This document shows, piece by piece, positions 37,115-63,221 of a stretch of DNA of 64,000 nucleotides. Source of the stretch: Holdemania sp. Marseille-P2844 (GTDB taxonomy: Bacteria; Bacillota_I; Bacilli_A; Erysipelotrichales; Erysipelotrichaceae). Under the pieces are notes generated by a model. It made no database searches, was not told the origin of the DNA, and saw nothing but the letters and a program-made list of their open reading frames with translations. Within the stretch, counting starts at the first letter, position 1. The number at the start of each line of letters is the position of its first letter. The translations under genes were made by a program, and so were the position numbers. The stretch spans positions 453,668 through 517,667 of the forward strand of contig NZ_LT635452.1 of NCBI RefSeq assembly GCF_900120005.1. Direction: 5' to 3'.

Positions 37115-37777
37115 ATGCAGAAAGTCGCGGTTATTCATACCAGTCCGGTCTCGCTTAACGAGCTGAAAGCCTTGTTTGCGGAGTTGTTGCCGGAGGTGGA
37201 GATGATCAACATCATTGACGACAGTTTACTGGAGGAGGTCAAGCGCAATAATGGAATCACGCCGGGCATCGTCTCAAGGATGTGCCTGTATGGTCAGGCG
37301 GCGCAGTCGATGGGCGTGGACTTGATTCTGAACCAATGCTCATCCGTGGGTGAAAGCGCGGATATTGTGAAGCAGACTGTAACCTGCCCGCTGCTTAAGA
37401 TCGACGAACCGATGGCCGAGGAAGCGGTGCAGCTGGGAACGAAAATCGGCGTGATCGCTACGGTGGGTTCAACGATGAAACCAAGCTGCAATCTGATTCG
37501 TACAAAAGCACGGCAAGCAGGCAAAGCCGTGGAAATGAAGGAGTATCTGGTTGCCGGGGCACTGGATATTTTGATGAAGGAGAAGAATCAGGAAAAACAT
37601 AATGAACTCGTGCTGAAAGAAATTAAAAAGGCCGAGCAGGAGTGCGATGTGATCGTTTTGGCTCAGGGGAGCATGACGGTGATGCTTCCCTATCTGGAGG
37701 GAATTTCCAAGCCGGTGCTGACCAGCCCGCGTAAAGCGGTGGAACGCGTCAAGCAGATGCTGGCGCAGCAGGCATGA
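37115..37777 (+). CDS. Aspartate/glutamate racemase-like protein
   Basis: This 220-residue protein has the Asp/Glu/hydantoin racemase fold: VAVIHTSPVSLNELKALF at the N-terminus, LILNQCSSVGES with the first catalytic Cys near residue 75, and VIVLAQGSMTVMLP where the second Cys is expected near residue 192. There the Cys is replaced by Ser, so two-base racemisation is doubtful and it may be a decarboxylase, isomerase or one-sided variant. AAAGGAGGA lies ahead. The gene overlaps the following DUF1537 kinase by four bases, which points to a shared acid-sugar pathway. Confidence 0.8.
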   Translation: MQKVAVIHTSPVSLNELKALFAELLPEVEMINIIDDSLLEEVKRNNGITPGIVSRMCLYGQAAQSMGVDLILNQCSSVGESADIVKQTVTCPLLKIDEPMAEEAVQLGTKIGVIATVGSTMKPSCNLIRTKARQAGKAVEMKEYLVAGALDILMKEKNQEKHNELVLKEIKKAEQECDVIVLAQGSMTVMLPYLEGISKPVLTSPRKAVERVKQMLAQQA

Positions 37778-39123
37778 GTTCTTTCGTTGACAAAGCACCT
37801 AAGATCGTCGTGCTCGACGACGATCCGACCGGGATTCAGATGGTTCATGACGTCGCGGTATATACATCGTGGGAGGAAGAAGCCTGTGAAAACCTCCTGC
37901 AGCAGAGTGAGGCGATGGTCTATATCCTGACCAACACCCGTGCGCTCAAGCCGGAAGCCGCGCGCTGCCTGCTGCGGGAATTGACGCAGAATCTGATCAC
38001 GGCGTCCCGTCGAAGCAACATTCCTTTTTGGCTGGTACTGCGCTCGGATTCAACCCTGCGGGGGCATTATCCGCTGGAATCCGAAACGGTTCGCGCAGGA
38101 CTCAGCGAGCATGGAATTGAGGTGGAGGGAGAAATTCTGTGTCCATATCTGCAGGGGATGCGAATCACGCGGAACGATATCCATTATCTGAAACAGGGAG
38201 GACAATGGCTGCCCGTCGGGGAAAGTGAATTTGCCCAGGATAAGACGTTTGGATTTCATGCCAGCGATCTCAAAGTGTATGTGGAAGAAAAGACCCAGGG
38301 ACGCTATCCGGCTTCTTCCTGCCTGTCAATTTCCCTGGAAATACTGCGAAATCATGATGAAGCGGCAATTATGCGAATTCTGCGGCAGGCGCACGGCTTT
38401 CAGAAGATCATTGTCAACGCGGAAACGGATGACGATCTGCGCGCGTTGATCCGACCATTAAAGACGGTGCTGAAAGAGAAGGTATTCCTGTTTCGGACCG
38501 CGGCGTCTTTCTGTAAACTCTTTGCACAGCAGGATGACAAACCGCTGCTGGATCCGCGGGTTTGCGTGCAGCCGCAGAATCACAACGGCGGATTGATCGT
38601 CGCAGGCTCGCATGTCCAGAAAACGTCGCGTCAGCTGGAAGTGCTGCGCCAGAATTTATGCCTGGAAACGATCGTCTTTGATCAACATCAGATCCTGCAG
38701 GGCTCGCTGATGGAAGAAAGCGAGCGCTGCGCCAGACTTGTAAACCAAAAACTGGCGGAGGGAATCACGGTAGTTTTGCAGACGCGGCGGGAACGCGTGG
38801 ATCTGCCGCAGGGGAGCGCGGAGGATCAGCTGCGGCTGACGCAGGCGATCAACGATCAGTTCATCCGGGTTGTTGAGCAGCTGAACGTGTGGCCGCGGTT
38901 TATGATCACCAAAGGCGGGATCACGTCCAGTGATTGTCTGACGCGGGGGCTTCGGGTCCGGCGGGAATGGGCATCAGGCCAGATTGAACCGGGAATCGGC
39001 GTGATTCGCTGTGATCGTGCCAGCCGGTTTCCCGAGCTGCCCGTTGTGATCTTTCCCGGCAATGTCGGGGAAGACAATACGCTGGCGAAGATCGTGGTAA
39101 AGCTGAATACGGCGCAGGCATAA
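37774..39123 (+). CDS. Four-carbon acid sugar kinase family (DUF1537)
   Basis: This 449-residue member of the DUF1537 family (OtnK/DtnK kinases) phosphorylates erythronate- or threonate-like acids. The N-terminal motif is IVVLDDDPTGIQMVHDVAVYTSW, and the C-terminal nucleotide-binding motif is MITKGGITSSDCLTRGL. Known genes of this kind sit with a dehydrogenase, isomerase and aldolase that make DHAP or pyruvate. Here only the racemase-like gene is coupled (ATGA overlap), so the pathway is incomplete locally. The substrate cannot be named. Confidence 0.82.
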   Translation: MSSFVDKAPKIVVLDDDPTGIQMVHDVAVYTSWEEEACENLLQQSEAMVYILTNTRALKPEAARCLLRELTQNLITASRRSNIPFWLVLRSDSTLRGHYPLESETVRAGLSEHGIEVEGEILCPYLQGMRITRNDIHYLKQGGQWLPVGESEFAQDKTFGFHASDLKVYVEEKTQGRYPASSCLSISLEILRNHDEAAIMRILRQAHGFQKIIVNAETDDDLRALIRPLKTVLKEKVFLFRTAASFCKLFAQQDDKPLLDPRVCVQPQNHNGGLIVAGSHVQKTSRQLEVLRQNLCLETIVFDQHQILQGSLMEESERCARLVNQKLAEGITVVLQTRRERVDLPQGSAEDQLRLTQAINDQFIRVVEQLNVWPRFMITKGGITSSDCLTRGLRVRREWASGQIEPGIGVIRCDRASRFPELPVVIFPGNVGEDNTLAKIVVKLNTAQA

Positions 39124-41832: not shown

Positions 41833-42447
41833 TTATTTCTTCGATACGTTTTCAAATGCAGTCAGAATTTGCGGCTCACTCATTTGTTCCGGCTGGTCTT
41901 TGATCCAGCTGACGACGTCTTTGTAATGCAGCAGTGCAAACTCGCTTCGGGCATGCGTCAGATCCGCGGCGTCGGGAAAGGCACAGAGGCCGGTGCAGTC
42001 CACGCCGCCCAATGCCTGACGCTGATATTGGCAATGTTGACGCAGTCCGTCGGCAGGATTGGGAATCCGGAAGTTTTTTGTCGTTTCCGTCTGCGGGCGG
42101 CTGACGATCCAGTGCTTGTCGTTCGGCTTGCCGCTGATCTGACCTTCGCTGCGGACGTCGCGGATTACGAAGGCGCCGCGGGTGCATAACAGGGTAACAT
42201 AGGTCTGGGCGACATGCCCATTTTGATCCAGCACGGAATTGTAGAGCAGCCGGTGGAAGCCCAGCTCCTGTTTCAGCCAGCTGCTGACGGACAGGTTCTG
42301 GCGGAATTGATAGCGCCAGAAGTATTCAAGATAGTTAGCGAACAACGCCGGATACAGCGTTTTGGTATAATGCTTGTGCAGCCGGAACGCCTGGAACACA
42401 GCCAACGCCAACAGAACGGTGATCAGGCCATACAGAATGACATCCAT
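41833..42447 (-). CDS. Membrane-anchored degenerate NERD-like protein
   Basis: This 204-residue protein has one N-terminal helix (MDVILYGLITVLLALAVFQAF). Its middle (NSVLDQNGHVAQTYVTLLCTRGAFVIRDVRSEGQISGKPNDKHWIVSR) follows the spacing of NERD nuclease-related domains, but the acidic and Lys catalytic positions are replaced (AQTYV, RDVRSEG). It is therefore probably not a nuclease. The gene starts one base after the uxaA stop, so it belongs to the uxa operon. The link to altronate metabolism is unexplained. Confidence 0.6.
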   Translation of the reverse strand: MDVILYGLITVLLALAVFQAFRLHKHYTKTLYPALFANYLEYFWRYQFRQNLSVSSWLKQELGFHRLLYNSVLDQNGHVAQTYVTLLCTRGAFVIRDVRSEGQISGKPNDKHWIVSRPQTETTKNFRIPNPADGLRQHCQYQRQALGGVDCTGLCAFPDAADLTHARSEFALLHYKDVVSWIKDQPEQMSEPQILTAFENVSKK

Positions 42448-43923
42448 TTAACAGATTACCCCCTGTTTGAAGATTGCGATGCTGCGCAGATCGCTGATTT
42501 CATTGCGTGTTTTCTTTCCTTCCAGCACGGCGATCAGATCTTCGACCAGCTGGCTTGCCGCCTCGTCCAGCGTGACGCCCTCCGTCAGGATTCCGGCGTT
42601 GAAGTCGATCCAGTGCGGCTTTTTCGCAGCCAGCTCGGAGTTGGTCGAAACTTTGTAAGTTGGAATGAACCCACCAAACGGCGTACCCCGGCCTGTCGTG
42701 AACAGCACGATCTGACAGCCGCTGGCGCCCAGCGCCGTGGTTGACACGAGATCGTTGCCCGGCCCATACACGAGACTGACGCCTTTTTTCTGGATCGGCT
42801 CGCCATAGTCGAGCACATCGCGGATCAGCGCGGTTCCGGCTTTCTGGATGCAGCCCAGACTTTTTTCCTCCAGCGTCGTGATGCCGCCGGCCTTGTTGCC
42901 CGGGGATGGATTTTCATAGACAACCTGATGATTGGACAGGAAATAATCCTTGAAGCGATTGATCATCGCGACGAGCTTATCGAATGTTTCCTGATCGGCG
43001 GCCCGGTTCATTAACAGCTGTTCCGCACCGAACATTTCCGGGACTTCGCTGAGCACGATATTCGCACCATAGCTGGACAGAATATCGGAAAACCGTCCCA
43101 GCAGCGGATTGGCGGTGATGCCGGAATAGCCGTCGGAACCGCCGCACTTCAAACCGAAGGAGAAATCGCTGAGATCGCAAGCTTCGCGCTGATCATGACG
43201 CATGACCTGATAAATCTGTTCGAGCAGCTCCACGGCGCTGTGAACCTCATTCTCGACATCCTGACAGTTCAGGCAGCGGATACGCTCCGGGTCGATCTGT
43301 TCCAGTGTATCGTAGAATGGTTTCAGCTGGTTGTTTTCGCAGCCCAAACCGAGCACGAGCACGCCCCCGGCATTGGGATGGGTGACGATGTCCTGTAAAA
43401 TTTTGACGGTGTTTTGATGGTCCTGTCCCATCTGCGAACAGCCGAATGGATGATCAAACGTGAAGATGCCGTCGATATCATCGAAGGGATGACGCTGGCG
43501 GAAGGTGTTGACGATGTTGCGGGCGGTGTCGCCGATGCAGCCGACCGTGACGATCACCCACAGCTCGTTGCGGATTCCGACCTTGCCGTTGGCGCGGCGG
43601 TAGGCCATGACGGAACGGCCTTGAGGACGTTTGACAATCGGATCAACGATGGGGTTGTATTGATAGTTAAGCGTCCCGGACAATAATGTTTTCAGGTTAT
43701 GGCTGTGAACCCAGCGTCCAGGTTCAATTCGTTCAGCGGCCTGACCGATCGGCTGACCGTATTTGATGACCGGCTGATTGGCCAAAATGGGTTTACAGGC
43801 AAATTTATGTCCGGATGGGATGTCGTCCAGCAACAGGATCCCATCGACCGATTCTCCGGCGGACAAGGGTTCCAGTGCGACGATCACATTGTCGTTGGAC
43901 TGGATGTGCAGCGTTTTCTTCAT
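42448..43923 (-). CDS. uxaA: Altronate dehydratase (UxaA)
   Basis: This 491-residue cytosolic dehydratase converts D-altronate to 2-keto-3-deoxygluconate in galacturonate breakdown. An N-terminal SAF-type domain (residues 1-75) is followed by the altronate/galactarate dehydratase core: FGCSQMGQDHQNTVKIL, LGLGCENNQL, SDFSFGLKCGGSDGYSGITANPLLG and a C-terminal EGVTLDEAASQLVEDL. Its start overlaps uxaB by four bases. It needs uxaB to make its substrate; kdgK/kdgA and uxaC are not in the window. AAGGAGGG lies before the ATG. Confidence 0.9.
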   Translation of the reverse strand: MKKTLHIQSNDNVIVALEPLSAGESVDGILLLDDIPSGHKFACKPILANQPVIKYGQPIGQAAERIEPGRWVHSHNLKTLLSGTLNYQYNPIVDPIVKRPQGRSVMAYRRANGKVGIRNELWVIVTVGCIGDTARNIVNTFRQRHPFDDIDGIFTFDHPFGCSQMGQDHQNTVKILQDIVTHPNAGGVLVLGLGCENNQLKPFYDTLEQIDPERIRCLNCQDVENEVHSAVELLEQIYQVMRHDQREACDLSDFSFGLKCGGSDGYSGITANPLLGRFSDILSSYGANIVLSEVPEMFGAEQLLMNRAADQETFDKLVAMINRFKDYFLSNHQVVYENPSPGNKAGGITTLEEKSLGCIQKAGTALIRDVLDYGEPIQKKGVSLVYGPGNDLVSTTALGASGCQIVLFTTGRGTPFGGFIPTYKVSTNSELAAKKPHWIDFNAGILTEGVTLDEAASQLVEDLIAVLEGKKTRNEISDLRSIAIFKQGVIC

Positions 43924-45356
43924 GCAAGTCCCTCCTTTTTTAACGCTTCGCGAAGGCCGAGCGTCGTGAGCGAACGGATGATTTCAGTCAAACGTTCCGT
44001 GATGTTGTCCATCGCTGCCAATTTGCCCTGCCAAAGCGGCAGCTGGAGCAGCGCGCTGATCGTTGCCTGCGGCTGGCGCTCATCCCAGTTTTGCCAACAG
44101 GCCAGGACTTCCGGGCTTTCGCTGATCAACGGCGTGCCGTCTGATTTCCGCCGGCTCAAAAGGACGATCAGCGCGGCGAGCGAGAAACAGGCATGGGGGG
44201 CCAGCGCTTTATGCGTATCGTAATAATGCCGCATCGCCGGCAGATCACGGGTATTGAACTTGGCGATTGAATTGAGCGAAATGCTCATGAGCTCGTGGCG
44301 GATATCCGGATTTTCAAAACGTTCAAAAACGTCGTGAGTAAAGGATTTTAATTCACTTTCGCTGAAATTGAGCGAAGGCCATACCTCTTCCTTTAAAAAG
44401 GCTTCAAGGAAACGGCGAATCTGCGGATCCTCGACGGTTTCCTTTACGGTTTCCAGTCCCCCCAGTAATCCTAAGGGAACCATCGCGGTATGCGCGCCGT
44501 TGAGGATCGCGACTTTGCGGTCGCGGTAAGGGGCCAGATCGTCGGTAAAGATAATGTTTTGATTTAACTGATCCAGCGGCAGCACGGAGCGCAGCGCGGG
44601 ATCGCCCTGAATTACCCAGCTGTGATAGATTTCACCCTTGACCAGACAGGCATCGTGATAGCCGAGCAGTTCTTCCAGCGCCCCCGCCTGATCTTTCGGA
44701 TAGCCCGGTACGATGCGGTCAACCAGCGTATTGTAAAATCGGTTGGCGTTCTCAATCCAGTCCAGAAAAGCCTGCGGTTCGCCTTGTTCGCGGGCTTTGC
44801 GGCAGACGATTTCTTTCAGCGTGTCGCCGTTGCGTTCAATCAGCTCGCAGCACACGATATCCATGCCGCTTTCCGGCGTGCCCTTTAACGACTGGAAGCG
44901 ATGCTTCAGCACGGCCAGAACTTTGCCGGGGAAGCTTTGCGGACAAGCGTCCAGCGTCACGTTTTCGTCTGTATAGGCGATTCCCGCTTCGGTGGTGTTC
45001 GAGATGATCACGCGGCATTGCGGATCTGCCGCACCTTGCAAAAGCGCCGGGTAATCCGTGTAGGGATCGATTCCCTGTTCGATCACGTCGATGATCCGCA
45101 TCTCACGCGTTGCCGTGCCTTGTTTTTTTCCTTCTAAAAGCAGCGTATATAATCCATCCTGTTCCATTAAGTTTCTGACCCGCCCATGCGGCCGCGGCTG
45201 AACGACGCAGACGCCGCCGTTGAAATCGGTTTTCTCATTCAGCTGAGAAATGAAATCATCGACAAAGGCCCGCAGGAAGTTTCCTTCGCCGAACTGAAGA
45301 ATGCGCACCGGCCGCTGCGGCTGGGGATGATTTTGACGATTTAAAGATTCCATCAT
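43920..45356 (-). CDS. uxaB: Tagaturonate reductase (UxaB)
   Basis: This 478-residue NAD-dependent dehydrogenase of the mannitol-dehydrogenase family reduces D-tagaturonate to D-altronate. The N-terminal dinucleotide region is ILQFGEGNFLRAFVDDFI, and the C-terminal domain has KVAILNGAHTAMVPLGLLGG. It is the first gene of a leftward operon (uxaB-uxaA-NERD-like) with GGAG six bases ahead of the ATG. The upstream region carries a copy of the element found at the PRD and EIIB promoters, suggesting control by the PRD activator at 55884. Confidence 0.9.
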   Translation of the reverse strand: MMESLNRQNHPQPQRPVRILQFGEGNFLRAFVDDFISQLNEKTDFNGGVCVVQPRPHGRVRNLMEQDGLYTLLLEGKKQGTATREMRIIDVIEQGIDPYTDYPALLQGAADPQCRVIISNTTEAGIAYTDENVTLDACPQSFPGKVLAVLKHRFQSLKGTPESGMDIVCCELIERNGDTLKEIVCRKAREQGEPQAFLDWIENANRFYNTLVDRIVPGYPKDQAGALEELLGYHDACLVKGEIYHSWVIQGDPALRSVLPLDQLNQNIIFTDDLAPYRDRKVAILNGAHTAMVPLGLLGGLETVKETVEDPQIRRFLEAFLKEEVWPSLNFSESELKSFTHDVFERFENPDIRHELMSISLNSIAKFNTRDLPAMRHYYDTHKALAPHACFSLAALIVLLSRRKSDGTPLISESPEVLACWQNWDERQPQATISALLQLPLWQGKLAAMDNITERLTEIIRSLTTLGLREALKKEGLA

Positions 45357-45384: not shown

Positions 45385-45442
45385 ATCATGTTTAACAAGC
45401 GTCCACGGCAGGCAAACAGGCAGTTTATTCCGGTAATTTTTT
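45385..45442 (-). promoter_or_regulatory. uxa promoter with PRD-type activator element
   Basis: Read leftward: AAAAAATTACCG (45442-45431), seven bases, CTGCCTG, three bases, a weak -35 (GCCTGC), 17 bases, -10 CATGAT (45390-45385). The distance from element start to -10 is 52 bases, exactly as at 55795 and 58381. The distal half is degenerate here. Confidence 0.6.
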
Positions 45443-45443
45443 A

Positions 45444-45498
45444 TGTTTTCATTTTAACGAAGTTTTTTGCCTGATTTTTGTTTTCATTCTGATGAAGT
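45444..45498. repeat. Twin direct repeats between uxaB and pyrophosphatase genes
   Basis: A 20-base unit (45444-45463: TGTTTTCATTTTAACGAAGT) recurs at 45479-45498 with three differences, 35 bases apart. The second copy contains the palindrome TTCAT-TCTG-ATGAA. These are probable operator sites. Confidence 0.55.
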
Positions 45499-45620
45499 CT
45501 TGAGAATGAACAAATGGGCAGCCGCTGCGGAATAATCAGAAAAATGATCAAAAGTCCCTCTTTATCCTTTATAATAAAATCATTAACGTAAGAATGAGAA
45601 AATCAGAACAGGAGAAAAAG

Positions 45621-50550: not shown

Positions 50551-51510
50551 TCAGAGCTGATCCAATCCCAGCCGTGCGATTTCCGCGTCGATTTGCTGCA
50601 TTTGAGCATCGCTGAGCTGCCATGTGAACGTATTGAGATTTTCCGCGACATGACGCACGCTGCGTACGCCGACCAACGCGGTGGAGACGAATGCTTTCTG
50701 CGTCGACCAGTTGATCGCAACCTGACTGACTGGAACCTGATGTGTCCGGGCAATTTCATCCAGCGTTGCCATCAGCTCCATGACGCGGGGGAAGATCTCC
50801 GGCTTAAAGCCTTTATAGAAGGACAGCCGGACATCGTTGGCCGGCCAGTCGGGAACCTCGCGGAACCGGCCGGTCAGAATCCCGCCGCTTAAGGAACCAT
50901 AGGTCATCGTGTCGATGCCATGTGCGGCACACCATTGCATCAATGGCTTATAACGCTGATCGATCATCGAGAAGGGCGGTTGAACGACGTCGATCTGACC
51001 GTATTTCATCGCTTCCTCCAATAACGGCTGATCGCAGTTGGACAAGCCGATATAGCGGATTTTTCCCTGCTGCTTTAAGAAGTTCAGGGCACACATCGTT
51101 TCCGCAATCGGCGTGTGCGTATCCGGCCAATGCAGGAAATAAAAATCGACGTAATCGGTCTGGAGGTTGCGCAGCGAGCTGGCCATTTCCTCCATGACTG
51201 TACCGAAACGGGCGTCGCGGAATACGCCGCCGGTGAATAAATCATTGTGCGTGCCGAACTTCGTGGAAATTAAAATCTCAGACCGGTTCAGACCCTGGAT
51301 CGCTTTGCCGACGATCTGTTCCGAGCTGTGGTTGCCATAGTTGGGTGCTGTGTCGATCAGGTTGACGCCGCCCTGGATCATCGCGCGGATTGCTTCGATC
51401 GCTTCGGTTTCGCTCATCGCGCCGTTCCAGCGCAGGCTGTCCAGCCCCCAGGTGCCGACGGCCAGCTGACTGACGTCGACGTTGGCGTTTTTAAAATGAG
51501 TCATGCGCAT
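50551..51510 (-). CDS. Aldo/keto reductase
   Basis: This 319-residue NADPH-dependent reductase has the AKR catalytic tetrad: Asp in NLIDTAPNYG, Tyr in APNYG, Lys in ILISTKFG and His in FYFLHWPD. The C-terminal cofactor region is SQVAINWSTQ followed by ALVGVRSVRHVAENL. It is the last gene of the leftward operon (IolB-like isomerase, transaldolase, iron alcohol dehydrogenase, this gene). It probably reduces an aldehyde or ketose intermediate of the pathway. AAGGATGATC lies ahead of the start. Confidence 0.85.
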   Translation of the reverse strand: MRMTHFKNANVDVSQLAVGTWGLDSLRWNGAMSETEAIEAIRAMIQGGVNLIDTAPNYGNHSSEQIVGKAIQGLNRSEILISTKFGTHNDLFTGGVFRDARFGTVMEEMASSLRNLQTDYVDFYFLHWPDTHTPIAETMCALNFLKQQGKIRYIGLSNCDQPLLEEAMKYGQIDVVQPPFSMIDQRYKPLMQWCAAHGIDTMTYGSLSGGILTGRFREVPDWPANDVRLSFYKGFKPEIFPRVMELMATLDEIARTHQVPVSQVAINWSTQKAFVSTALVGVRSVRHVAENLNTFTWQLSDAQMQQIDAEIARLGLDQL

Positions 51511-51602
51511 AATTTAGATCATCCTTTCATCATTGATGCCGGAAAAAAACGGGAAGTCCTGGGCAGGGGAGAAACTTAGGGGCTAAGAAAGATCTGAAGG
51601 AT

Positions 51603-52754
51603 TTACCACAGCTGTTTATACAGCTCGATCATCGCCTGTTCCGTTATCGGCTTGCGGGTGTTGGCCGGGGAGCCGGAAACGTTGGCGTCATGGGCCATTT
51701 TTTCCAGCGAATTCATGAACTGATCCCGATCGACATTCAGCTGCGCCAAGGTTGGCACGTTCAGCCGGGCTAACAGCGCGGACAGATTTTCAATAAACAG
51801 ATCGGCCGCCTGTTCATCATCCTCACACTGTGTCATATCGCAATAACGCGCCAGATCCGCAAACCGGGCCACTGCGCCATCCTTAACATATTTCATGCAG
51901 ACTTCCAACAGCACGGCGTTGCTTAAGCCATGCGCGATATGGAACAGCGCGCCGATCGGACGGCTCATGCCATGGACGATCGTTACCGAGGAATTGTTGA
52001 AGGCGATCCCGGCTTCCAGCGCCGCCAGCGACATCTGGATCCGGGCTTCCTCATTGTCGCCATGCTCATAGGCATTTGTCAGATTGTTGAAAATCCGCTT
52101 GACGGCGCTGAGCGCGAAGGTGTCGGAAAGTGGCTGGGCCAGACGGGAGGTGTAGGCTTCAACCGCGTGGCACAGGGCGTCGATGCCGGTCGCGCTGGTC
52201 ACGCCCTTGGGCGCGGTCATCGTGAACTGCGGGTCGATGATCGCCAGATCCGGAATCAGACTGCCGCCTTTTAAAAGCATCTTCACGTCGTTTTCCGTGT
52301 CGGTGATGATCGTGAACTGGGTTGCTTCCGAACCCGTGCCGGCAGTCGTCGGGATCGCGACCTTCTTCGGCAGCGGCGTTTCCACCGGCTGACCCATGTA
52401 GGAATTCAACGGCCGGTTTGGATCGGCGCTCATCATCGCGATCGCCTTCATCGAGTCGATCGGCGAACCGCCGCCCAGCGCGATCAAGAAGTCGCAGTGT
52501 TCCGCCTGATATTGCTTCAAGCCGTCGATGATCATCGTATCGCATGGCTCACTGTTGATTTGAGCATAAATCGAATATCCGACATGATGTTGATTCAGCA
52601 CTCTCAGCACCTTGTCCAGATTGCCGAGCTTGATCATCATCGAATCGGTGACGATCAGCGCCTTTTTGCCTAACGCGGCCAATGCGGGACCGGCCATTTC
52701 CAGAGCGCTTGAACCGTTGATGATTTTAGCGGGTGTTAAAAATAGATTTGCCAT
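51603..52754 (-). CDS. Iron-containing alcohol dehydrogenase
   Basis: This 383-residue group III alcohol dehydrogenase has the NAD-binding motif GGGSPIDSMKAIAMM near residue 95 and TAGTGSEATQFTIITD, with the metal-binding His cluster in IVHGMSRPIGALFHIAHGLSNAVLLE near residue 265. Homologues reduce short aldehydes such as lactaldehyde, 3-hydroxypropanal or sulfolactaldehyde. In this operon it follows a transaldolase gene, so the aldehyde that transaldolase releases is its natural candidate substrate. Confidence 0.87.
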   Translation of the reverse strand: MANLFLTPAKIINGSSALEMAGPALAALGKKALIVTDSMMIKLGNLDKVLRVLNQHHVGYSIYAQINSEPCDTMIIDGLKQYQAEHCDFLIALGGGSPIDSMKAIAMMSADPNRPLNSYMGQPVETPLPKKVAIPTTAGTGSEATQFTIITDTENDVKMLLKGGSLIPDLAIIDPQFTMTAPKGVTSATGIDALCHAVEAYTSRLAQPLSDTFALSAVKRIFNNLTNAYEHGDNEEARIQMSLAALEAGIAFNNSSVTIVHGMSRPIGALFHIAHGLSNAVLLEVCMKYVKDGAVARFADLARYCDMTQCEDDEQAADLFIENLSALLARLNVPTLAQLNVDRDQFMNSLEKMAHDANVSGSPANTRKPITEQAMIELYKQLW

Positions 52755-52766
52755 TGTCGTTCCTCC

Positions 52767-53822
52767 TTATTTGATCATGTAGCCGCGGATGAGTTTGACT
52801 AAATCGTCATAGCCGCCCAGAAACTGATTCATCGTCGCCAAAAACGCGCCGTAGTGCTCAAACGCTTCCGGCTTTAACCCATCCTCAAAGTATGCTTTTT
52901 TGAATTCATCCAGCTTCATCAGCTCGTTGATCAGCTCGTCTGCGACCGGCGTGTCGATGTTGTTTTGGATCACGACGTCGCTGCCGTTGTATTTGCGCTG
53001 CCAGTCGCTGGTGATCGTCAGAACGATATCCCCGCCGATGAATTCTTCCCAATGATGCTGATTGCGGAAGGCCGCGACCAGCAGCTTTGTCCGATAGCCG
53101 CGTTCCTTGTATAACCGGTAGGCGTTTTTGACGACCGCTACGCCCGCCATGTCCAACGCTTCCGCGCTGATCATCACGTCGTGCTGCTTGACCCAGGCTT
53201 TTAAGTAATCGTCGGTCCGGCCGGCCATGATCGTGCAGACCGGATGCATTTCCGCCGTGGACAAGCCTTCCGCTTCCCGCCGCGCCAAGCCGCGCTCCAC
53301 GGCTTCGGCGACCGCAATCGCCTGGGCGCAGGTGAACGAGACTGTCGCATTGATACTGACGCCGCGGTAGGTCAATTCCTCAAACGCTTCGATGCCGGCC
53401 TTGGAGGTCGGGGCTTTGATCTGGGAATTGGGCACGGTGGCCGCCAGCTCGCAGGCCTGCTCGACCATCTTGTCCTTGCTGCGGTAGAACTTGGCGTTGG
53501 TCTGAAACGAAATCCGGCCTTTCTGACCATGGCTTTCCTCAAACATCGGCAAAAGCAGCCGGCTGGCTTTGGCGCCTAACGCCTTGATCACATCCCAGGC
53601 GACCTCATCCTCGGTGTAAGCCGGATGGGTGCTGATGATTTCTCTGATGGTCTCTTCCCATTCGGGCAGTTCCTTCTTTAAGACGTTGCCGACGATGACC
53701 GGGTTGGTGGTTGCGCCGCTGGCGCCGTTGTCGATTGCATATTGCAGCTCCTTGCAGCTGCAGGAGTCGTTCCACACTTCCGTCTGCGGGAAGCGGGTGA
53801 CCATTTCGTATAATTTATTCAT
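52767..53822 (-). CDS. Transaldolase-family enzyme
   Basis: This 351-residue TIM-barrel aldolase of the transaldolase family has an N-terminal phosphate/sugar site NGASGATTNPVIVGNVLKKE, an active-site Lys region in NSQIKAPTSKAGIEAFEELTYRGVSINATVSFT, and the C-terminal VCTIMAGRTDDYLKAWV. The family transfers a three-carbon ketol unit. It lies between an IolB-like isomerase and an aldehyde dehydrogenase or reductase, where it would cleave a hexulose-type intermediate. It is distinct from short fructose-6-phosphate aldolases (220 residues). AGGAGAAAT precedes the start. Confidence 0.85.
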   Translation of the reverse strand: MNKLYEMVTRFPQTEVWNDSCSCKELQYAIDNGASGATTNPVIVGNVLKKELPEWEETIREIISTHPAYTEDEVAWDVIKALGAKASRLLLPMFEESHGQKGRISFQTNAKFYRSKDKMVEQACELAATVPNSQIKAPTSKAGIEAFEELTYRGVSINATVSFTCAQAIAVAEAVERGLARREAEGLSTAEMHPVCTIMAGRTDDYLKAWVKQHDVMISAEALDMAGVAVVKNAYRLYKERGYRTKLLVAAFRNQHHWEEFIGGDIVLTITSDWQRKYNGSDVVIQNNIDTPVADELINELMKLDEFKKAYFEDGLKPEAFEHYGAFLATMNQFLGGYDDLVKLIRGYMIK

Positions 53823-53886
53823 GTATTTTTATTTCTCCTTTACTTTAACAGGCTGACCGCCTTGACAAGACTTGGCGTTGTTTTGC

Positions 53887-53928
53887 AGGACCGCTGCCCG
53901 GCAAGGCATTTGCCGCTGTCCTTTTTTT
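53887..53928 (+). terminator. Rightward terminator inside the leftward operon
   Basis: AGGAC (53887-53891) pairs with GTCCT, with an inner GGCA/TGCC stem, followed by seven T. It points against the genes on both sides. Confidence 0.6.
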
Positions 53929-53988
53929 CGAAGACGGACGGATTCTGCGCGATGGCTGAGCGGACCTGAGGAATGAAGGGGTTATGGC

Positions 53989-54777
53989 TTATTGATCAAG
54001 CTGGAAGAATTCGGCATCCGGATCGTTGACCCATTCATGATCGGGGTCGAAGGTGCGCGTCTTGATCCACGGATTGTTTTTTAGATGCGGAATCATCCAG
54101 ACATAGAACATCGCGTAGCCCGGCGCGGCATTTTGCGGATGGGTCAGACCGCCGGGGATCATCGCGACGCTGTTGTGCGTGATTTTATAGACCTCCTCGC
54201 CCATGAAGCAGCTGCCGAAGCCCTGCGGATGATCGAACTTGTAGAAGTAGACCTCCGGCTGGGGATGATGATGCGGCGGATAACTGCTCCAGAAGCCTGG
54301 AAAGTTGGTGATTTCCCCCAGCACCATGTTGGAATATGGCGTGCGCTGGTAATCCAGGATCGTCGTGACCTGGCGCTTGGTCGTGGCAGCCAGCTTGCCT
54401 TCGCCGAAGAACTGTTTGTCGATGTTGGACTTATCATACAGCACGGCCGGGAAGATCCGCGGGTTTTCCTTCTGTTGGACCAGCACCTCGCCATCTTCCT
54501 CAAAGACCAGCGTCACCGGCGTGTTCCGGCAGACGTGCAGGCAGGTCGCGTCGTCGTGGAAGCAATCCTTCCGCACGGCGCTGACCGCTTTGCCTTCATA
54601 TTGATAGACAACAGTTCCGCTCAGCAGCAGCAGCGCCGTTTCCTGATCCTTTGACTGGATCGGCCAGGACTCGCCTTTATGGGCGATTAACAGTTGAACG
54701 TTCATGAACATCCGGTCTTTTTCACTGTCGCAGATCTGATTGAAACCGGGATGCAGATCCTCATTTTTTCTTAGCAT
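53989..54777 (-). CDS. IolB-like cupin isomerase (KduI/IolB family)
   Basis: This 262-residue bicupin matches the IolB/KduI isomerase family: metal ligands in the YPPHHHPQPEVYFY cluster, and the sequence VYQYEGKAVSAVRKDCFH in the first cupin. In inositol breakdown IolB isomerises 5-deoxyglucuronate, but no iolC, D or E is nearby. It could instead make a ketose for the adjacent transaldolase. I chose the ATG at 54777, eight bases behind AAAGGAG. The promoter and operator lie at once upstream. Confidence 0.78.
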   Translation of the reverse strand: MLRKNEDLHPGFNQICDSEKDRMFMNVQLLIAHKGESWPIQSKDQETALLLLSGTVVYQYEGKAVSAVRKDCFHDDATCLHVCRNTPVTLVFEEDGEVLVQQKENPRIFPAVLYDKSNIDKQFFGEGKLAATTKRQVTTILDYQRTPYSNMVLGEITNFPGFWSSYPPHHHPQPEVYFYKFDHPQGFGSCFMGEEVYKITHNSVAMIPGGLTHPQNAAPGYAMFYVWMIPHLKNNPWIKTRTFDPDHEWVNDPDAEFFQLDQ

Positions 54778-54794
54778 TGTGAACTCCTTTCTGC

Positions 54795-54836
54795 TTGTCA
54801 CAGGGATTCAACTTGTCTATAATGGAGAAAGTTGAA
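54795..54836 (+). promoter_or_regulatory. DeoR gene promoter with palindromic operator
   Basis: TTGTCA (54795-54800), 17-base spacer, TATAAT (54818-54823). The inverted repeat TTCAACTT (54807-54814) and AAGTTGAA (54829-54836), 14 bases apart, surrounds the -10 box and is the natural site for the DeoR protein. It would control both directions. Confidence 0.75.
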
Positions 54837-54852
54837 AGGTCGGGGAAAAACC

Positions 54853-55794: not shown

Positions 55795-55852
55795 AAAAAA
55801 TTACCGGATTTCTGTTCCCGTTTTTCTTTCAGCCGGAACAGGAAAGTATGCT
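55795..55852 (+). promoter_or_regulatory. PRD operon promoter with activator element
   Basis: AAAAAATTACCG (55795-55806), seven bases, GTTCCCG (55814-55820), three bases, weak -35 TTCTTT (55824-55829), 17 bases, -10 TATGCT (55847-55852). The layout is identical to the EIIB promoter at 58381. Confidence 0.75.
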
Positions 55853-55883: not shown

Positions 55884-57851
55884 ATGAATGATCAAAAGTC
55901 TAATTACTACACCCAGCTGATCTTGAAGGCGCTGCTGAATAAAGAGATGGTGACCACGGGCCAGCTGGCGGAAGAAATTGGACTGTCAGAAAAAACGATC
56001 CGCACTAAAGTGGAAGTGATCAACAACATGCTGCTGGACAACCAGCTGGGCGAGATATGCAAGAAACCCCGGATCGGGATCTGGCTGAATGCGGATGCGC
56101 AGCAGCGGCTGAAGCTCAATTCGCTGATCAACAACTCGACGAATATGGACGTACTGCAAAACGATCAGGTCCGCACCGCAACAGCGCTGAAGCTGATCTT
56201 GAAAAGCACGAAGAACAACACGCTGACGACCAAGCAGCTGGCCTCCCAGCTCTATCTCAGCGTACCGACGACGCTCAAGGTGATCAACGACTGCCGCAGC
56301 TGGCTGAAGCTGTTTAACATCGAGCTGAACGTCGTGCGCAACAAGGGGCTGGAACTGGCGTACAACGAGGTGTCCTACCGCCTGGCATTGAAGCATTTCA
56401 TTCTGAAATTCGATACCGAGACCAACGTCGAGGAAAGTATCCTGTTTTTTATGCCGGGACTGGATCTTGATGCGATCCGGCGGGGAATCATGGAAACGGA
56501 AAAGGAATGGAGCTTTGAGTTCGCCGAGGAATCCTTCAACGAGGTGCTTGTTTACGCATCGCTGGCGATCTATCAGAACCAGCAGGAAAATGGCCGCAAG
56601 CTGAAATTTTCAGATGAAGAGCTGGAAATGCTTCAGAAGTACAACGAATACAGCTTTGCCGAAGCGATCTTTAAAAAGCTCGGGGCGCATTTCAACATGA
56701 CGCTGCCGACTGAGGAAAAAGCGTTTTTGTCAATCCAGATCCTGTGCTCCAAGCTGATCGACAGCGGCTACAGCGCCGACAGCGGCGAGGTGCTGCGGGA
56801 ATATGACAACAAGCTGCAGGAATTTGTCCGCAAGATCATCTCCGTTGTCAGCAACGTTCTCAACGTCGATCTGACGCATGACGACGCGCTCTATCACGGC
56901 CTGTTGATTCACATGCGGCCGACGCTGTTTCGGCTGCGCTATGAACGTGGACATACCAACGGGCTGACCAGTTATATTAAAACGGAATACAAAAAGACCT
57001 TCCGGGTTGCCTGGCTGATCTCCGTTCTGTTTGAGGAATATTTCGATCTGAAGGTCAGCGAGGATGAGCTGGGCTATATCGTGCTGTATATCCAATCCGC
57101 TCTGGAGCGCAATGAGAATCCGGTCCGGACGATGCTGGTCAGCGCTTCGGGCATGGGCATCAACCAGATGCTGTGCGACAAGATCTGCCGCTCGTCCAGC
57201 CTGATTCATTCGGTGAAGGTGGTCAGCGTCCATGATTTCAAGATTGAAAAAGTCACGGACGTCGATTTGATTTTGACGACGCGCGAGCTGCAGCTGAATG
57301 ACCCGCGGATCGTGGAGATCGACGATTTCCTGTCCGACGCTTCGATTCAGAAAATCAACCACTGGATCCGCAACACGATTCTCAACAAGGTCAGCGAGGC
57401 GCAGTTCGACGCGGACTGCCACCAGCTGTTTGAGCCGGATCTGATCTTTACGCATCTGAAAATTGACGACAAGCCGGCGCTGCTGAAGTATTTATGCGAT
57501 CATCTGGTCCGCAAGGGCTATGTCACGCGCAAGTATGTCAAGACGGTCCTGGATCGTGAAGCGTTTACGCCGACGTCGATCGGCAACGGCGTTGCGATTC
57601 CTCATGGCGATCAGAACGAGATCAACGAAGCCCGGGTCGTCATCGCCACGCTGGAAAAACCGATCTTGTGGGACAGCGAAATGGTCGACGTGATCTTTCT
57701 GTTAGTCGTGAAAATGACCAATGACTTTGAGATCCGCCGCACCCAGGCTTTCTATAAGCAGTACATCAAGCTGGTCGGAACCGACGAGCAGGTCAACGTC
57801 CTGCGGAATTTCCAGACCAACGTCGATTTTTACAAATATTTAATCAAGTAA
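55884..57851 (+). CDS. PRD-containing PTS-controlled transcriptional activator (MtlR/ManR type)
   Basis: This 655-residue activator has an N-terminal winged helix (KEMVTTGQLAEEIGLSEKTIRTKVE, residues 18-42) and a second helix-turn-helix (TTKQLASQLYLSVPTTLKVI). PRD1 and PRD2 (residues 160-400) follow, then an EIIB-like domain (MLVSASGMGINQML) and an EIIA-like domain ending near IPHGD (His for phosphate). The EIIB-like motif has Ser where the phosphorylated Cys normally stands. It is normally toggled by HPr and EII phosphorylation. It activates the PTS genes that follow and, from the shared element, probably uxaB and itself. GGGCGG lies ahead of the ATG. Confidence 0.88.
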   Translation: MNDQKSNYYTQLILKALLNKEMVTTGQLAEEIGLSEKTIRTKVEVINNMLLDNQLGEICKKPRIGIWLNADAQQRLKLNSLINNSTNMDVLQNDQVRTATALKLILKSTKNNTLTTKQLASQLYLSVPTTLKVINDCRSWLKLFNIELNVVRNKGLELAYNEVSYRLALKHFILKFDTETNVEESILFFMPGLDLDAIRRGIMETEKEWSFEFAEESFNEVLVYASLAIYQNQQENGRKLKFSDEELEMLQKYNEYSFAEAIFKKLGAHFNMTLPTEEKAFLSIQILCSKLIDSGYSADSGEVLREYDNKLQEFVRKIISVVSNVLNVDLTHDDALYHGLLIHMRPTLFRLRYERGHTNGLTSYIKTEYKKTFRVAWLISVLFEEYFDLKVSEDELGYIVLYIQSALERNENPVRTMLVSASGMGINQMLCDKICRSSSLIHSVKVVSVHDFKIEKVTDVDLILTTRELQLNDPRIVEIDDFLSDASIQKINHWIRNTILNKVSEAQFDADCHQLFEPDLIFTHLKIDDKPALLKYLCDHLVRKGYVTRKYVKTVLDREAFTPTSIGNGVAIPHGDQNEINEARVVIATLEKPILWDSEMVDVIFLLVVKMTNDFEIRRTQAFYKQYIKLVGTDEQVNVLRNFQTNVDFYKYLIK

Positions 57852-57891: not shown

Positions 57892-58344
57892 ATGGCATTA
57901 GCGGATATTCTGGATGAAAACATCATCGACCTGCATTTAAAGAGCACGACGAAAGACGAAGTGCTCCATGATTTGAGCGCGCACCTGCTGGAAGCGGGCT
58001 ACATTGAAGACATCGAACAGTTCGTCAAGGACATTTATGTCCGGGAAGCGGAAGGGATTACCGGCATGGGCAACCACATCGCGATTCCTCATGGCAAAAG
58101 TCATGCCGTCAAAAAGATCGGGATCGCGATCGGCCGATGCGAAAATGAGATCGAATGGGAAAGCTACGACGATGAGCCGATCAATCTGGTCTTCCTGTTC
58201 TGCGTCAGCGACGACGCTGATTTCGCGTCCAATCACATGATGCTGCTGGCGGAGCTGGCCGGCAAGCTGGGCAACGACGAACGCGTGGAGAAGCTGCAGA
58301 AGGTTACAACAAAGCAGGAGTTGATTAATTTATTCCTCAACTAA
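57892..58344 (+). CDS. PTS fructose-type EIIA
   Basis: This 150-residue cytosolic EIIA (fructose/mannitol type) has the active-site His in GMGNHIAIPHGKSHAVKKIG near residue 65 and the C-terminal ELAGKLGNDERVEKLQ. It takes phosphate from HPr and gives it to EIIB. AAGGAGAG lies before the ATG. It follows the PRD activator gene by about 40 bases and belongs to that transcript. A promoter with the activator element precedes the next gene. Confidence 0.92.
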   Translation: MALADILDENIIDLHLKSTTKDEVLHDLSAHLLEAGYIEDIEQFVKDIYVREAEGITGMGNHIAIPHGKSHAVKKIGIAIGRCENEIEWESYDDEPINLVFLFCVSDDADFASNHMMLLAELAGKLGNDERVEKLQKVTTKQELINLFLN

Positions 58345-58352
58345 TGACCAAA

Positions 58353-58396
58353 ATTACCGTAATTTAATCGTTACTTAATCAAAAAATTACCGTAAT
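58353..58396. promoter_or_regulatory. Twin palindromes between EIIA and EIIB
   Basis: ATTACCGTAAT, an 11-base palindrome, occurs at 58353-58363 and 58386-58396, exactly 33 bases apart (three helix turns). The second lies in the proximal half of the activator element. Confidence 0.6.
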
Positions 58397-58438
58397 AAAG
58401 TTCCCGCAGTTGTTAAACTAAAGCGCTTGCAACATGAT
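58381..58438 (+). promoter_or_regulatory. EIIB-EIIC-aldolase promoter with activator element
   Basis: AAAAAATTACCG (58381-58392), seven bases, GTTCCCG (58400-58406), three bases, -35 TTGTTA (58410-58415), 17 bases, -10 CATGAT (58433-58438). Confidence 0.75.
58419..58432 (-). promoter_or_regulatory. Probable CcpA (cre) site
   Basis: The complement reads TTGCAAGCGCTTTA, close to the cre consensus WTGNAANCGNWNNCW. It fills the spacer between -35 and -10, so bound CcpA would block transcription. Confidence 0.55.
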
Positions 58439-58487: not shown

Positions 58488-58799
58488 ATGAAGATTGTAG
58501 GAATTACAGCTTGTACCGCAGGCATCGCGCATACCTATATCGTTGCGGAAAAGATTCAGAACGCAGCGGAGGCCGCGGGCCATCAGTGCAAGATCGAAAC
58601 GCAGGGGACGATCGGCGCACAGAACAAACTGACAGCGGAAGATATCGCCGCGGCGGATGTTGTCATCATCGCGCATGATATCGCTGTCGGCGGAATGGAA
58701 CGTTTCGCCGGCAAGCCGACCGTTGACATTCCGATCAGCGTCGCGATGAAGAATCCAAAAAGCTTGATCGCCACGATCGAAAAGAAAATCCAAAAATAA
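58488..58799 (+). CDS. PTS fructose-type EIIB
   Basis: This 103-residue EIIB has the phospho-Cys motif GITACTAGIAHTYIVAEKI near residue 8, the canonical fructose-type sequence. It is followed by the EIIC gene 18 bases on. GGGAGGTG stands ahead of the ATG. It carries phosphate from EIIA to the incoming sugar at EIIC. The promoter just upstream has the activator element and a cre site. Confidence 0.92.
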   Translation: MKIVGITACTAGIAHTYIVAEKIQNAAEAAGHQCKIETQGTIGAQNKLTAEDIAAADVVIIAHDIAVGGMERFAGKPTVDIPISVAMKNPKSLIATIEKKIQK

Positions 58800-58817: not shown

Positions 58818-59912
58818 ATGAAAAAGTTGAACTTTAAAAAACACATGATGACCGGCATCTCGTACATGATTCCGATGATCGTGGCCGGCGGTATCCTGGG
58901 CGCCTTAGCAAAAGGCTTCGGCGGATGGGAAGTCGGCAATTATGCGCCGGAAGCGGGCGCGACCCTCTTCAGCAACCTGAACTGCTTCGACTGGAAACAG
59001 TTCTGGTGGATGATTTCCAAATTATCTGACTACGCGATGAGCTTCGGCGTTGCGGTCATGACGGCCGGCGTCTGTTACTCGATCGCTGAACGTCCGGGCA
59101 TCGTGCCGGGCTTCGTCATCGGTTATGCGGCAAACCAGTCGAAAGCGGGCTTCTTAGGCGGTCTGCTGATGGCGTTTGTGATCGGTTATTTCATCCAGTG
59201 GATGAAGACCTGGAAGCTTCCGAAGTGGATGGTCGGCCTGATGCCGGTTATGATTATTCCAGTCATCGCGACCTTTGTCTGCGGCGTTGCCTTCTTCGCG
59301 ATCGTGGCGAAGCCGATGGCGATTGCCATGAATGCTCTGCAGGGTTGGATCATGAGCCTCAACGGTGGTTCCAAGTTCATCATCGGCGCGGTTATCGGCG
59401 CGGGCATGGGCTTCGATATGGGCGGCCCGGTCAACAAGACGGCTTCTATGGCGGCCAATGCGCTGGGTGCTGATGGCATCTACGGACCAATGTCAGCCAA
59501 GATCATCGGCGGCATGACGCCACCATGCGGCGTCTTCGTTTCCACTCTGTTAACACCGAAAAAATTCTCGCTGACGGAAAAAGAAACCGCGAAAACCGCA
59601 TTCCCGATGGGCCTGTGCTTCATTACTGAAGGCGTCCTGCCATTTGCTGCGGCAGATCCGGCCCGCTTCATCCCCGCTTCCATGATCGGTTCAGCGTTAG
59701 CCGGCGGCATCGCCGTAGCGATGGGTGTTGAATCCGTTGCCGGCCATGGCGGAATCTTCGTCTTCCCGATGATGACCAACTGGATGTGGGCGGTGATCGC
59801 CTTGATTGTCGGCTCAGTTGCGACTGGCGTCATCTATTCGGCGATCAAGAAGCCGAGCGAGGAAGGTCAGGAAGAGGAAGAAGAAATCGTCGACCTGGAC
59901 ATCAACCTGTAA
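58818..59912 (+). CDS. PTS fructose-type EIIC permease
   Basis: This 364-residue membrane permease of the fructose family has about nine hydrophobic helices. Signature stretches are MTGISYMIPMIVAGGILGALAKGFGG, FVIGYAANQSKAGFLGGLL, GMGFDMGGPVNKTASMAANALG (the sugar-site region) and TEGVLPFAAADPARFIPASMIG. The C-terminal tail is acidic (EEGQEEEEEIVDLD). The sugar is not predictable. Context suggests a ketose-like or acid sugar that feeds a class II aldolase. Confidence 0.9.
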   Translation: MKKLNFKKHMMTGISYMIPMIVAGGILGALAKGFGGWEVGNYAPEAGATLFSNLNCFDWKQFWWMISKLSDYAMSFGVAVMTAGVCYSIAERPGIVPGFVIGYAANQSKAGFLGGLLMAFVIGYFIQWMKTWKLPKWMVGLMPVMIIPVIATFVCGVAFFAIVAKPMAIAMNALQGWIMSLNGGSKFIIGAVIGAGMGFDMGGPVNKTASMAANALGADGIYGPMSAKIIGGMTPPCGVFVSTLLTPKKFSLTEKETAKTAFPMGLCFITEGVLPFAAADPARFIPASMIGSALAGGIAVAMGVESVAGHGGIFVFPMMTNWMWAVIALIVGSVATGVIYSAIKKPSEEGQEEEEEIVDLDINL

Positions 59913-59972: not shown

Positions 59973-60857
59973 ATGTTAGTTTCGATGAAGGATATTCTGC
60001 AGCACGCGCACAAGCATAATTACGCGGTGATGGCAGTCAACAGCATCAATATGGAAATGGCCCGCGCGGTGATCAGCGCCGCCGAGGAAGAACATTCCCC
60101 GATTATCGTCCAGATGGGTCCGGGTCAGATCGGCAAGCATGCGCATCTGACGGAGATCGTTCCGCTGGTGAAGGAACTGGCTGAACGCGCCAGCATTCCG
60201 GTCGCGTTGAACCTGGATCATGGCGGAAAGCTGGAAGATATGGTCACGGCCATCCACAACGGCTTCACCAGCCTGATGATCGACGCTTCTTCCTATCCTT
60301 ATGAGGAAAACGTCAAGCGGACCTCGGTTGTCTGCGCGCTGGCGCACCCGCACGGAATCTGCGTCGAAGCGGAGCTGGGCCATGTTGGGCAGGCGGCGGA
60401 CGGCGACAACAGTAAGGTCGACCTGTACACTAACGTCGAAGAAGCAAAGAAGTTTGTGGAAGACACCGGCTGCGACGCTTTGGCTGTGGCGATCGGCACG
60501 GCGCATGGGGATTATCCGAAGGGCTATGTGCCGGTGCTGAACTTTGAACGTCTGGCCGAGCTGAAAAAGGCGCTGGATATGCCGTTGGTTCTGCACGGCG
60601 GCAGCGGCAGCGGCGAAGAGAACATCCGCAAGGCCGTTGCCGGAGGCATCAACAAGATCAATGTCTGCACCGACGCTTTCCATGCCGCGAAAAACGCGAT
60701 GCTAAAGAAGCTGGAGTGCAAACCGAACGCGGATTATCTGGAACTGTGCATGACGGCGGAAGCCGCTGTGAAGCAGTTCGTGAAGGAATATATCCGGGTG
60801 ATCGGGTCCAACAACCAGTATTTCTACGGTGAATCGGTTTCGACCGGCAACGAATAA
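59973..60857 (+). CDS. Class II ketose-bisphosphate aldolase
   Basis: This 294-residue Zn-dependent aldolase is of the FbaA/GatY/IolJ type: metal ligands in ALNLDHGGKLEDM (residues 78-90), in EAELGHVGQAADG, and His in LVLHGGSGSGEENIRKAV, with KINVCTDAF at the phosphate site. It should split the phosphorylated sugar from the PTS into DHAP and an aldehyde. AAGGAG lies six bases ahead. A terminator follows, so this transcript ends here. Confidence 0.88.
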   Translation: MLVSMKDILQHAHKHNYAVMAVNSINMEMARAVISAAEEEHSPIIVQMGPGQIGKHAHLTEIVPLVKELAERASIPVALNLDHGGKLEDMVTAIHNGFTSLMIDASSYPYEENVKRTSVVCALAHPHGICVEAELGHVGQAADGDNSKVDLYTNVEEAKKFVEDTGCDALAVAIGTAHGDYPKGYVPVLNFERLAELKKALDMPLVLHGGSGSGEENIRKAVAGGINKINVCTDAFHAAKNAMLKKLECKPNADYLELCMTAEAAVKQFVKEYIRVIGSNNQYFYGESVSTGNE

Positions 60858-62299: not shown

Positions 62300-62443
62300 A
62301 TGACCTGGGCAAGGGGTATTGATCGGATCACCTTAGCTGGAAAACAGGATGAAAAATTACAGAATGAAGTTTTATTGGATCACATTATTTTGCTTTTCCA
62401 TTTTGGCAGGGCGGATAAACGACAATTTACCACATTAAAATGA
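62300..62443 (+). CDS. Doubtful 47-residue ORF behind the ATPase
   Basis: ATG at 62300 opens a frame reading MTWARGIDRITLAGKQ then NEVLLDHIILLFHFGRADKR to a TGA at 62443. Composition looks coding, but I see no ribosome binding site. It may be a fragment of a longer gene. It lies between the ATPase and the promoter at 62450. Confidence 0.3.
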   Translation: MTWARGIDRITLAGKQDEKLQNEVLLDHIILLFHFGRADKRQFTTLK

Positions 62444-62449
62444 CGAGGA

Positions 62450-62478
62450 TTGATAATCCGGAACGAATCGTTTATGAT
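62450..62478 (+). promoter_or_regulatory. Promoter of the RpiB-like/alcohol dehydrogenase operon
   Basis: TTGATA (62450-62455), 17-base spacer, TATGAT (62473-62478). Confidence 0.7.
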
Positions 62479-62543: not shown

Positions 62544-63221
62544 ATGAAAATTGCATTAATGAATGAATTCAGCCAGGCCCCGAAGAACACGATTATTCTG
62601 GAACAGCTGAAAGACGTCGTCGAACCGATGGGTCATACCGTTTATAACACCGCGATGGCAAAACCGCTGCTGGACAAGGACGTTCCGGAAGCGTATACGG
62701 AAGAAAATCCACGTCTGACTTATCTGCATCTGGGCATTCAGGCCTGCCTGCTGCTCAACAGCGGCGCGGTGGACTTCGTCGTTACCGGCTGCGGCACCGG
62801 TCAGGGCGCGCTGATGTCGCTGAACGCATATCCGGGCGTTGTCTGCGGCTATTGCATCGAACCGTCGGACGCCTACCTGTTCTTGCAGATCAACAACGGC
62901 AACGCACTGTCGATCCCTTATGCCAAAGGCTTCGGCTGGGGCGGCGAGCTGAACATCCACACGATTTTTGAAAAAGCATTTGGTTCTCCGAAGGGCATGG
63001 GCTATCCGAATGAGCCGGGCCGCAAGGAATCGCAGAACCGCAACGCCGCGCTGTTAAACGAAGTGAAGGCCGCGGTGGGCAAGCCGGTTCTGGAAGGCTT
63101 GAAGGCGCTTGATCAGAGCATGGTCAGGGAAGCGCTGACGCAGCGGTTCCAGGACTGCTTCTTCGCCGGCTGCCAGAACGCCGAGCTGGAAGCGTATGTA
63201 CGTGAAGTCTTAGGCAAATAA
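62544..63221 (+). CDS. RpiB/LacA-family sugar-phosphate isomerase
   Basis: This 225-residue isomerase is of the RpiB/LacA/LacB type, longer than the usual 150. The active-site loop is FVVTGCGTGQGALMSLNAYPGVVCG near residue 80, with the catalytic Cys at GCGTG. The N-terminus MKIALMNEFSQAPKN differs from the usual IALGADH. The extra C-terminal 70 residues are helical. It probably interconverts an aldose and a ketose phosphate in the same sugar pathway. GGAGAAAC lies ahead. The next gene starts four bases after its stop. Confidence 0.82.
   Translation: MKIALMNEFSQAPKNTIILEQLKDVVEPMGHTVYNTAMAKPLLDKDVPEAYTEENPRLTYLHLGIQACLLLNSGAVDFVVTGCGTGQGALMSLNAYPGVVCGYCIEPSDAYLFLQINNGNALSIPYAKGFGWGGELNIHTIFEKAFGSPKGMGYPNEPGRKESQNRNAALLNEVKAAVGKPVLEGLKALDQSMVREALTQRFQDCFFAGCQNAELEAYVREVLGK

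Follow-up and report, generated by a model that had tools for sequence, protein, structure and literature searches.

A putative operator of a PRD-type PTS regulator at hexuronate gene promoters in Holdemania

Here, we analysed a 64,000-nucleotide stretch of the genome of Holdemania sp. Marseille-P2844 (hereafter, the window) and found that the promoter of its altronate (uxa) operon carries a bipartite element shared with the promoters of a PRD-type regulator gene, of the adjacent PTS operon and of an operon starting with a dhuI-like gene. Judging from sequence comparisons, this element is very probably the operator of the PRD regulator encoded at 55884, which would act as a class II activator of the MtlR/LicR type on four operons, namely, PRD-EIIA, EIIB-EIIC-aldolase, uxaB-uxaA-X, and dhuI-FeADH-uxuA-uxuB-kduD. 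The kind of system is ordinary, a PTS activator regulon, and the operator and the targets are new: the literature searched, a partial coverage of the field, yielded no PRD regulator of hexuronate genes.

The element and the promoters that carry it

The genes and sites of the proposed regulon within the window are as follows.

41833..42447, minus strand: X, a protein of 204 aa with no assigned family, encoded by the third gene of the uxa operon
42448..43923, minus strand: uxaA, altronate dehydratase (Pfam GD_AH and SAF domains)
43920..45356, minus strand: uxaB, tagaturonate reductase (NCBIfam NF002969, 546.9 bits, cut-off 359)
45385..45390, minus strand: -10 hexamer CATGAT of the uxaB promoter, 45 bases from TACC
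45417..45442, minus strand: putative PRD operator of the uxaB promoter, AAAAAATTACCGGAATAAACTGCCTG
55795..55820, plus strand: putative PRD operator of the regulator's own promoter (-10 TATGCT at 55847-55852)
55884..57851, plus strand: PRD regulator, 655 aa (Pfam HTH_11, Mga, two PRD, PTS_EIIA_2)
57892..58344, plus strand: PTS EIIA, fructose type
58348..58372, plus strand: weaker second copy of the element in the EIIB promoter, CCAAAATTACCGTAATTTAATCGTT, 33 bases upstream of the main copy
58381..58406, plus strand: putative PRD operator of the EIIB-EIIC-aldolase promoter (-35 TTGTTA; -10 CATGAT at 58433-58438)
58488..58799, plus strand: PTS EIIB
58818..59912, plus strand: PTS EIIC, fructose type (TIGR01427, 267.7 bits, cut-off 157.55)
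59973..60857, plus strand: class II aldolase of the fructose/tagatose-bisphosphate type
62424..62445, plus strand: fourth putative PRD operator, before dhuI, AATTTACCACATTAAAATGACG (-35 TTGATA at 62450-62455; -10 TATGAT at 62473-62478)
62544..63221, plus strand: dhuI-like isomerase (PRK09273; RpiB fold family), whose gene heads its operon

At uxaB, the element reads, on the minus strand, AAAAAATTACCG (45442 to 45431), then GAATAAA, then CTGCCTG (to 45417); 26 bases separate CTGCCTG from CATGAT, and 28 bases separate CATGAT from the uxaB start codon (45356). The first-pass annotation had placed the element and the -10 hexamer exactly to the base, and re-derivation of the coordinates returned the same offset of 52 bases from element start to -10 start at uxaB, 55795 and 58381. 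Its description of the uxaB site as the third copy stands insofar as the 12-mer with this offset is found at three promoters of the window, but at least four sites exist. Nor is the distal half, CTGCCTG, degenerate, as had been supposed: it matches the cross-genus distal consensus and is a normal variant, because the distal half in this family of elements is NTKCC-like. Counted from TACC, the element extends from about -3 to 19, the -35 place from 22 to 27, and the -10 from 45 to 50, the distance of 45 bases between TACC and the -10 being exact at all four promoters.

The gene identities proposed earlier for the downstream region were borne out, with uxaB scoring above its cut-off, uxaA carrying altronate/galactarate dehydratase domains (and 0 NCBIfam models above their cut-offs), and the regulator combining HTH, Mga, PRD and EIIA domains. 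Genes for tagaturonate reductase and altronate dehydratase are thus both present, as befits an altronate operon. The dhuI operon continues beyond the window with Fe-ADH, uxuA, uxuB-like and kduD-like genes, of which the kduD-like protein falls slightly below its NCBIfam cut-off and the uxuB-like protein far below its own. The dhuI assignment rests on homology to S. agalactiae gbs1892, which we take to be DhuI.

Two further observations concern the architecture of these promoters. Tandem elements are frequent and lie 33 or 44 bases apart, that is, three or four turns of 11 bases (58348-58406 in the window; 9870 and 9914 in locus L134, 9845 and 9889 in L137, 10499 and 10543 in L143). The spacer of the EIIB promoter contains a cre-like sequence, CTAAAGCGCTTGCA (58418-58431), with two mismatches to TGWAARCGYTWNCW; it is identical in the three Holdemania species, and is weak evidence because the window holds 23 such two-mismatch matches.

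Rarity and conservation of the element

Genome-wide counts were obtained by pattern searches, and the matrix scan covered the 64-kb window. The 12-mer AAAAAATTACCG has 4 copies in the 3.68 Mb genome, three of them in the window; the fourth (C17:413203) is coding sequence at the very beginning of a lipoprotein gene and was rejected as a site. The bipartite pattern AAAAAATTACCGN8TNCCNG, with zero mismatches, finds only the uxaB, PRD and EIIB sites of the window in the entire 3.68 Mb, and a longer pattern that extends to the -10 is matched perfectly at three places in the genome, namely, uxaB, EIIB and dhuI, with the PRD promoter matching at 3 mismatches. Among the looser matches, C12:258227 (1 mismatch) is located at the 3′ end of a short gene and faces back towards the interior of that gene, and the genes near C12:396677 (3 mismatches) are not regulon-like. 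A general promoter element is ruled out, given that the pattern is confined to these promoters.

A motif was also learned de novo, by an EM search of 22 regions that precede PRD genes or EIIB operons in genera outside Holdemania. This training set, whose regions had been selected after a preliminary look with a hand-made matrix, excluded the Holdemania sites and contained no uxa or uxu gene. The resulting motif, AAAtTACCGtATTAAAAaGCCC, when scanned over the window, scored 26.3 bits at EIIB, 21.1 at dhuI, 20.7 at uxaB and 19.0 at PRD, with the next-best position at 9.3; the maximum in 60 Markov sequences of window length was 15.5, against 20.4 for uxaB under this slightly different background.

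Within the genus, the uxaB block TAAAAAATTACCGGAATAAACTGCCTG is identical in this genome, H. filiformis (G003) and H. massiliensis (G002), and the -10 region of the two congeners differs by at most 1 change. The uxaB element is intact in H. massiliensis even though the sequence that immediately precedes it barely aligns. The elements of the PRD, EIIB and dhuI promoters are likewise conserved in the three species, that of dhuI being invariant. The uxaB copy is known from these three species, all of one genus; a further congener, G001, whose genome is small, lacks uxaB as well as any close PRD relative. The gene order varies nearby: an AAA_14/DUF4143 ATPase gene (61059-62285) lies between the aldolase and dhuI genes here and in H. 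filiformis, and in H. massiliensis this place is taken by another PTS cluster, which has a PRD regulator of its own.

Beyond Holdemania, the element precedes PRD orthologs and/or EIIB operons in several genera. Longicatena caecimuris (G045) has two elements before the PRD gene and another before the EIIB-EIIC operon, which is located on a different contig. In a Longicatena MAG (G017), which has no full uxaB, a homolog of X comes with its own element and AATGAT at equal spacing. The Traorella element is a clean direct repeat (TTACCA-N8-TTACCA), and in this genus the link between PTS and uronate genes is physical, because kduD-, dhuI- and Fe-ADH-like genes directly follow the PTS genes. G009, from a different genus of the same family, has the element immediately before a uxuA gene that adjoins PfkB-family (kdgK-like) and eda-like genes; this site has a modest score of 15.4 bits, near the best Markov chance score (15.5), and the reversed control pattern also gives one match in this genome. 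Homologs of Asp/Glu racemase-family and DUF1537-type kinase genes, which in the window occupy 37115-39123, follow the Traorella PTS-kduD-dhuI genes; upstream of the window copies, the element was sought and not found.

Not every related locus carries the element. It was not found at the PRD loci of two genomes (G027 and G057). Nor does it precede a PRD paralog encoded in the Marseille-P2844 genome itself (L104, G000:C11:197987-199888), which is ~40% identical and has its own EIIA and PTS genes, so that the element is specific to one PRD lineage. Four uronate loci (L048-L051) from genomes without a close PRD ortholog also lack it, although only L051 reaches upstream of the operon start, which makes them a weak control. 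A class-wide pattern scan returned PRD loci and scattered matches, and those examined yielded no further uronate target. At several distant loci, the EIIC is more distant (~37% identical) and occurs with two aldolases and an additional kinase-like gene, so that this lineage of regulators probably serves more than one sugar.

Taken together, the presence of the element at PRD and EIIB promoters across genera and the conserved uxaB footprint at exact spacing support the link between the PRD regulator and uxaB-uxaA that had been suggested from this window. The connection between PTS regulator and hexuronates appears to be broader than was then proposed, with the element also at dhuI-uxuA-uxuB-kduD and at uxuA of G009.

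The regulator and alternative explanations

The protein encoded at 55884 has an architecture in keeping with PRD-type activators (MtlR/LicR/ManR type), with an N-terminal HTH, two PRDs and a C-terminal EIIA domain, and its gene lies beside a PTS operon. No Pfam match to an EIIB-like domain was detected between the PRDs and the EIIA domain; residues 413-607 have partial NCBIfam matches to mannitol EIICBA. We infer binding by this protein, activation and control by phosphorylation, the latter two by analogy with the regulator family. In the proposed mechanism, the regulator would bind just upstream of the -35 region and abutting it, about -61 to -38 from the predicted start, and would activate promoters with C/TATGAT-like -10 hexamers by class II activation, as has been proposed for MtlR. 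PTS activity would be relayed to the regulator by phosphorylation of its PRD and EIIA domains, and the altronate, mannonate and unsaturated-uronate branches may thereby be switched on together.

Alternatively, the element could belong to another regulator of the locus, such as the DeoR-family protein at 54832, with the PRD protein a merely co-regulated neighbor. In Holdemania, Traorella and some MAGs, the DeoR and PRD genes are indeed neighbors. However, no DeoR gene lies beside the PRD gene at the element-bearing loci L131, L134, L135, L137, L139 and L140, and it is the PRD gene that is the constant partner of the element. Furthermore, an element abutting the -35 region fits an activator, and the regulator's own promoter and that of the PTS operon, both of which carry it, are the usual targets of such PRD proteins (PMC3217849). 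Assignment of the element to another regulator is thus unlikely.

The DeoR gene is part of a cluster beside the PRD gene (50551-55605), which also encodes an aldo/keto reductase, an Fe-ADH, a transaldolase-like protein and an IolB/KduI-family protein. The Fe-ADH and transaldolase genes adjoin the PRD gene also in Longicatena sp., Traorella and two MAGs. The layout of this cluster recalls transaldolase-type sulfosugar pathways, with only a distant match to BmSF-TAL, and no PRD element was found upstream of it.

Another possibility is that the uxaB element is real but minor and that uxaBA is chiefly regulated by a different factor, whose site may be the AATGAAAAC direct repeat (45446-45500). Indeed, ACTTCATCAGAATGAAAACA and ACTTCGTTAAAATGAAAACA stand in tandem just upstream of the uxaB element and are retained in H. 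filiformis. In the alignment, however, the repeat is absent from H. massiliensis, which retains the PRD element. Moreover, the uxaB promoter has GCCTGC at the -35 place and no recognisable -35 hexamer, an arrangement that suggests heavy reliance on an activator acting from the PRD site and renders a subordinate role of this site quite improbable. Finally, although AAAAAATTACCG with up to two mismatches is common (19 matches in the window), a chance resemblance of an A-rich promoter stretch to the element is so improbable as to be negligible and, on the sequence comparisons, the observed uxaB element is not due to chance because of its bipartite uniqueness, its footprint, the independently learned motif and the exact spacing.

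Relation to known systems and the PTS substrate

With the element attributed to the PRD regulator, a close parallel is MtlR of Bacillus subtilis and Geobacillus, a PRD-type activator that acts on a PTS operon and controls its own promoter as well, and whose operator lies just upstream of the -35, for which class II activation was proposed (PMC3217849). The Holdemania system is similar in that the PTS operon and the regulator's own promoter would be targeted, with a putative operator just upstream of the -35. In the mtlR promoter, a cre overlaps the -10, comparable to the cre-like site in the Holdemania EIIB promoter (PMC3217849). The operators differ: that of MtlR includes a palindrome (TTGTCACAGTCATGTGCCAA, in the printed primers), whereas the Holdemania element is a direct repeat, TTACCR-N8-TKCCN, with a 14-base period, and by-eye comparison with the printed sequences found no counterpart of the palindromic MtlR box TTGTCACA...TGTGCCAA (PMC3217849). 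Also unlike the case of MtlR, the putative targets in Holdemania reach hexuronate operons outside the PTS operon.

In its targets, namely, genes for galacturonate and glucuronate breakdown, the proposed regulon resembles those of ExuR, UxuR, UxaR and KdgR; these LacI-type regulators, however, belong to another family and respond to sugar-acid effectors, whereas control in Holdemania would run via the PTS (PMC4052901). The combination of a PTS with a DhuI-type isomerase and a KduD/DhuD-type reductase recalls the streptococcal PTS for unsaturated hyaluronan disaccharides (PMC12838403), from which the Holdemania PTS differs in belonging to the fructose family and in its class II aldolase. Among the genes of the proposed regulon, none was recognised as encoding a hydrolase or a lyase.

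The aldolase and the fructose-family EIIC suggest a ketose-like PTS substrate, and dhuI, kduD, uxuAB and uxaAB point to uronates. One possible, if doubtful, reading is that this fructose-family PTS imports and phosphorylates a substrate of the uronic-acid type, such as a ketohexuronate, a hexonate or a uronate-bearing sugar, and that the class II aldolase acts on the phosphorylated product. If so, the PRD regulator would be the sensor of a uronate PTS pathway, and the PTS family would gain a new class of substrates.

The proposed regulon would define an operator and target genes for an uncharacterised PRD lineage of Holdemania, Longicatena, Traorella and Anaerostipes-type gut bacteria, and would narrow the PTS substrate to a compound metabolically close to hexuronates. 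Uronate breakdown, which is usually under the control of LacI-type or similar regulators, would thereby be placed under a PTS-linked activator.
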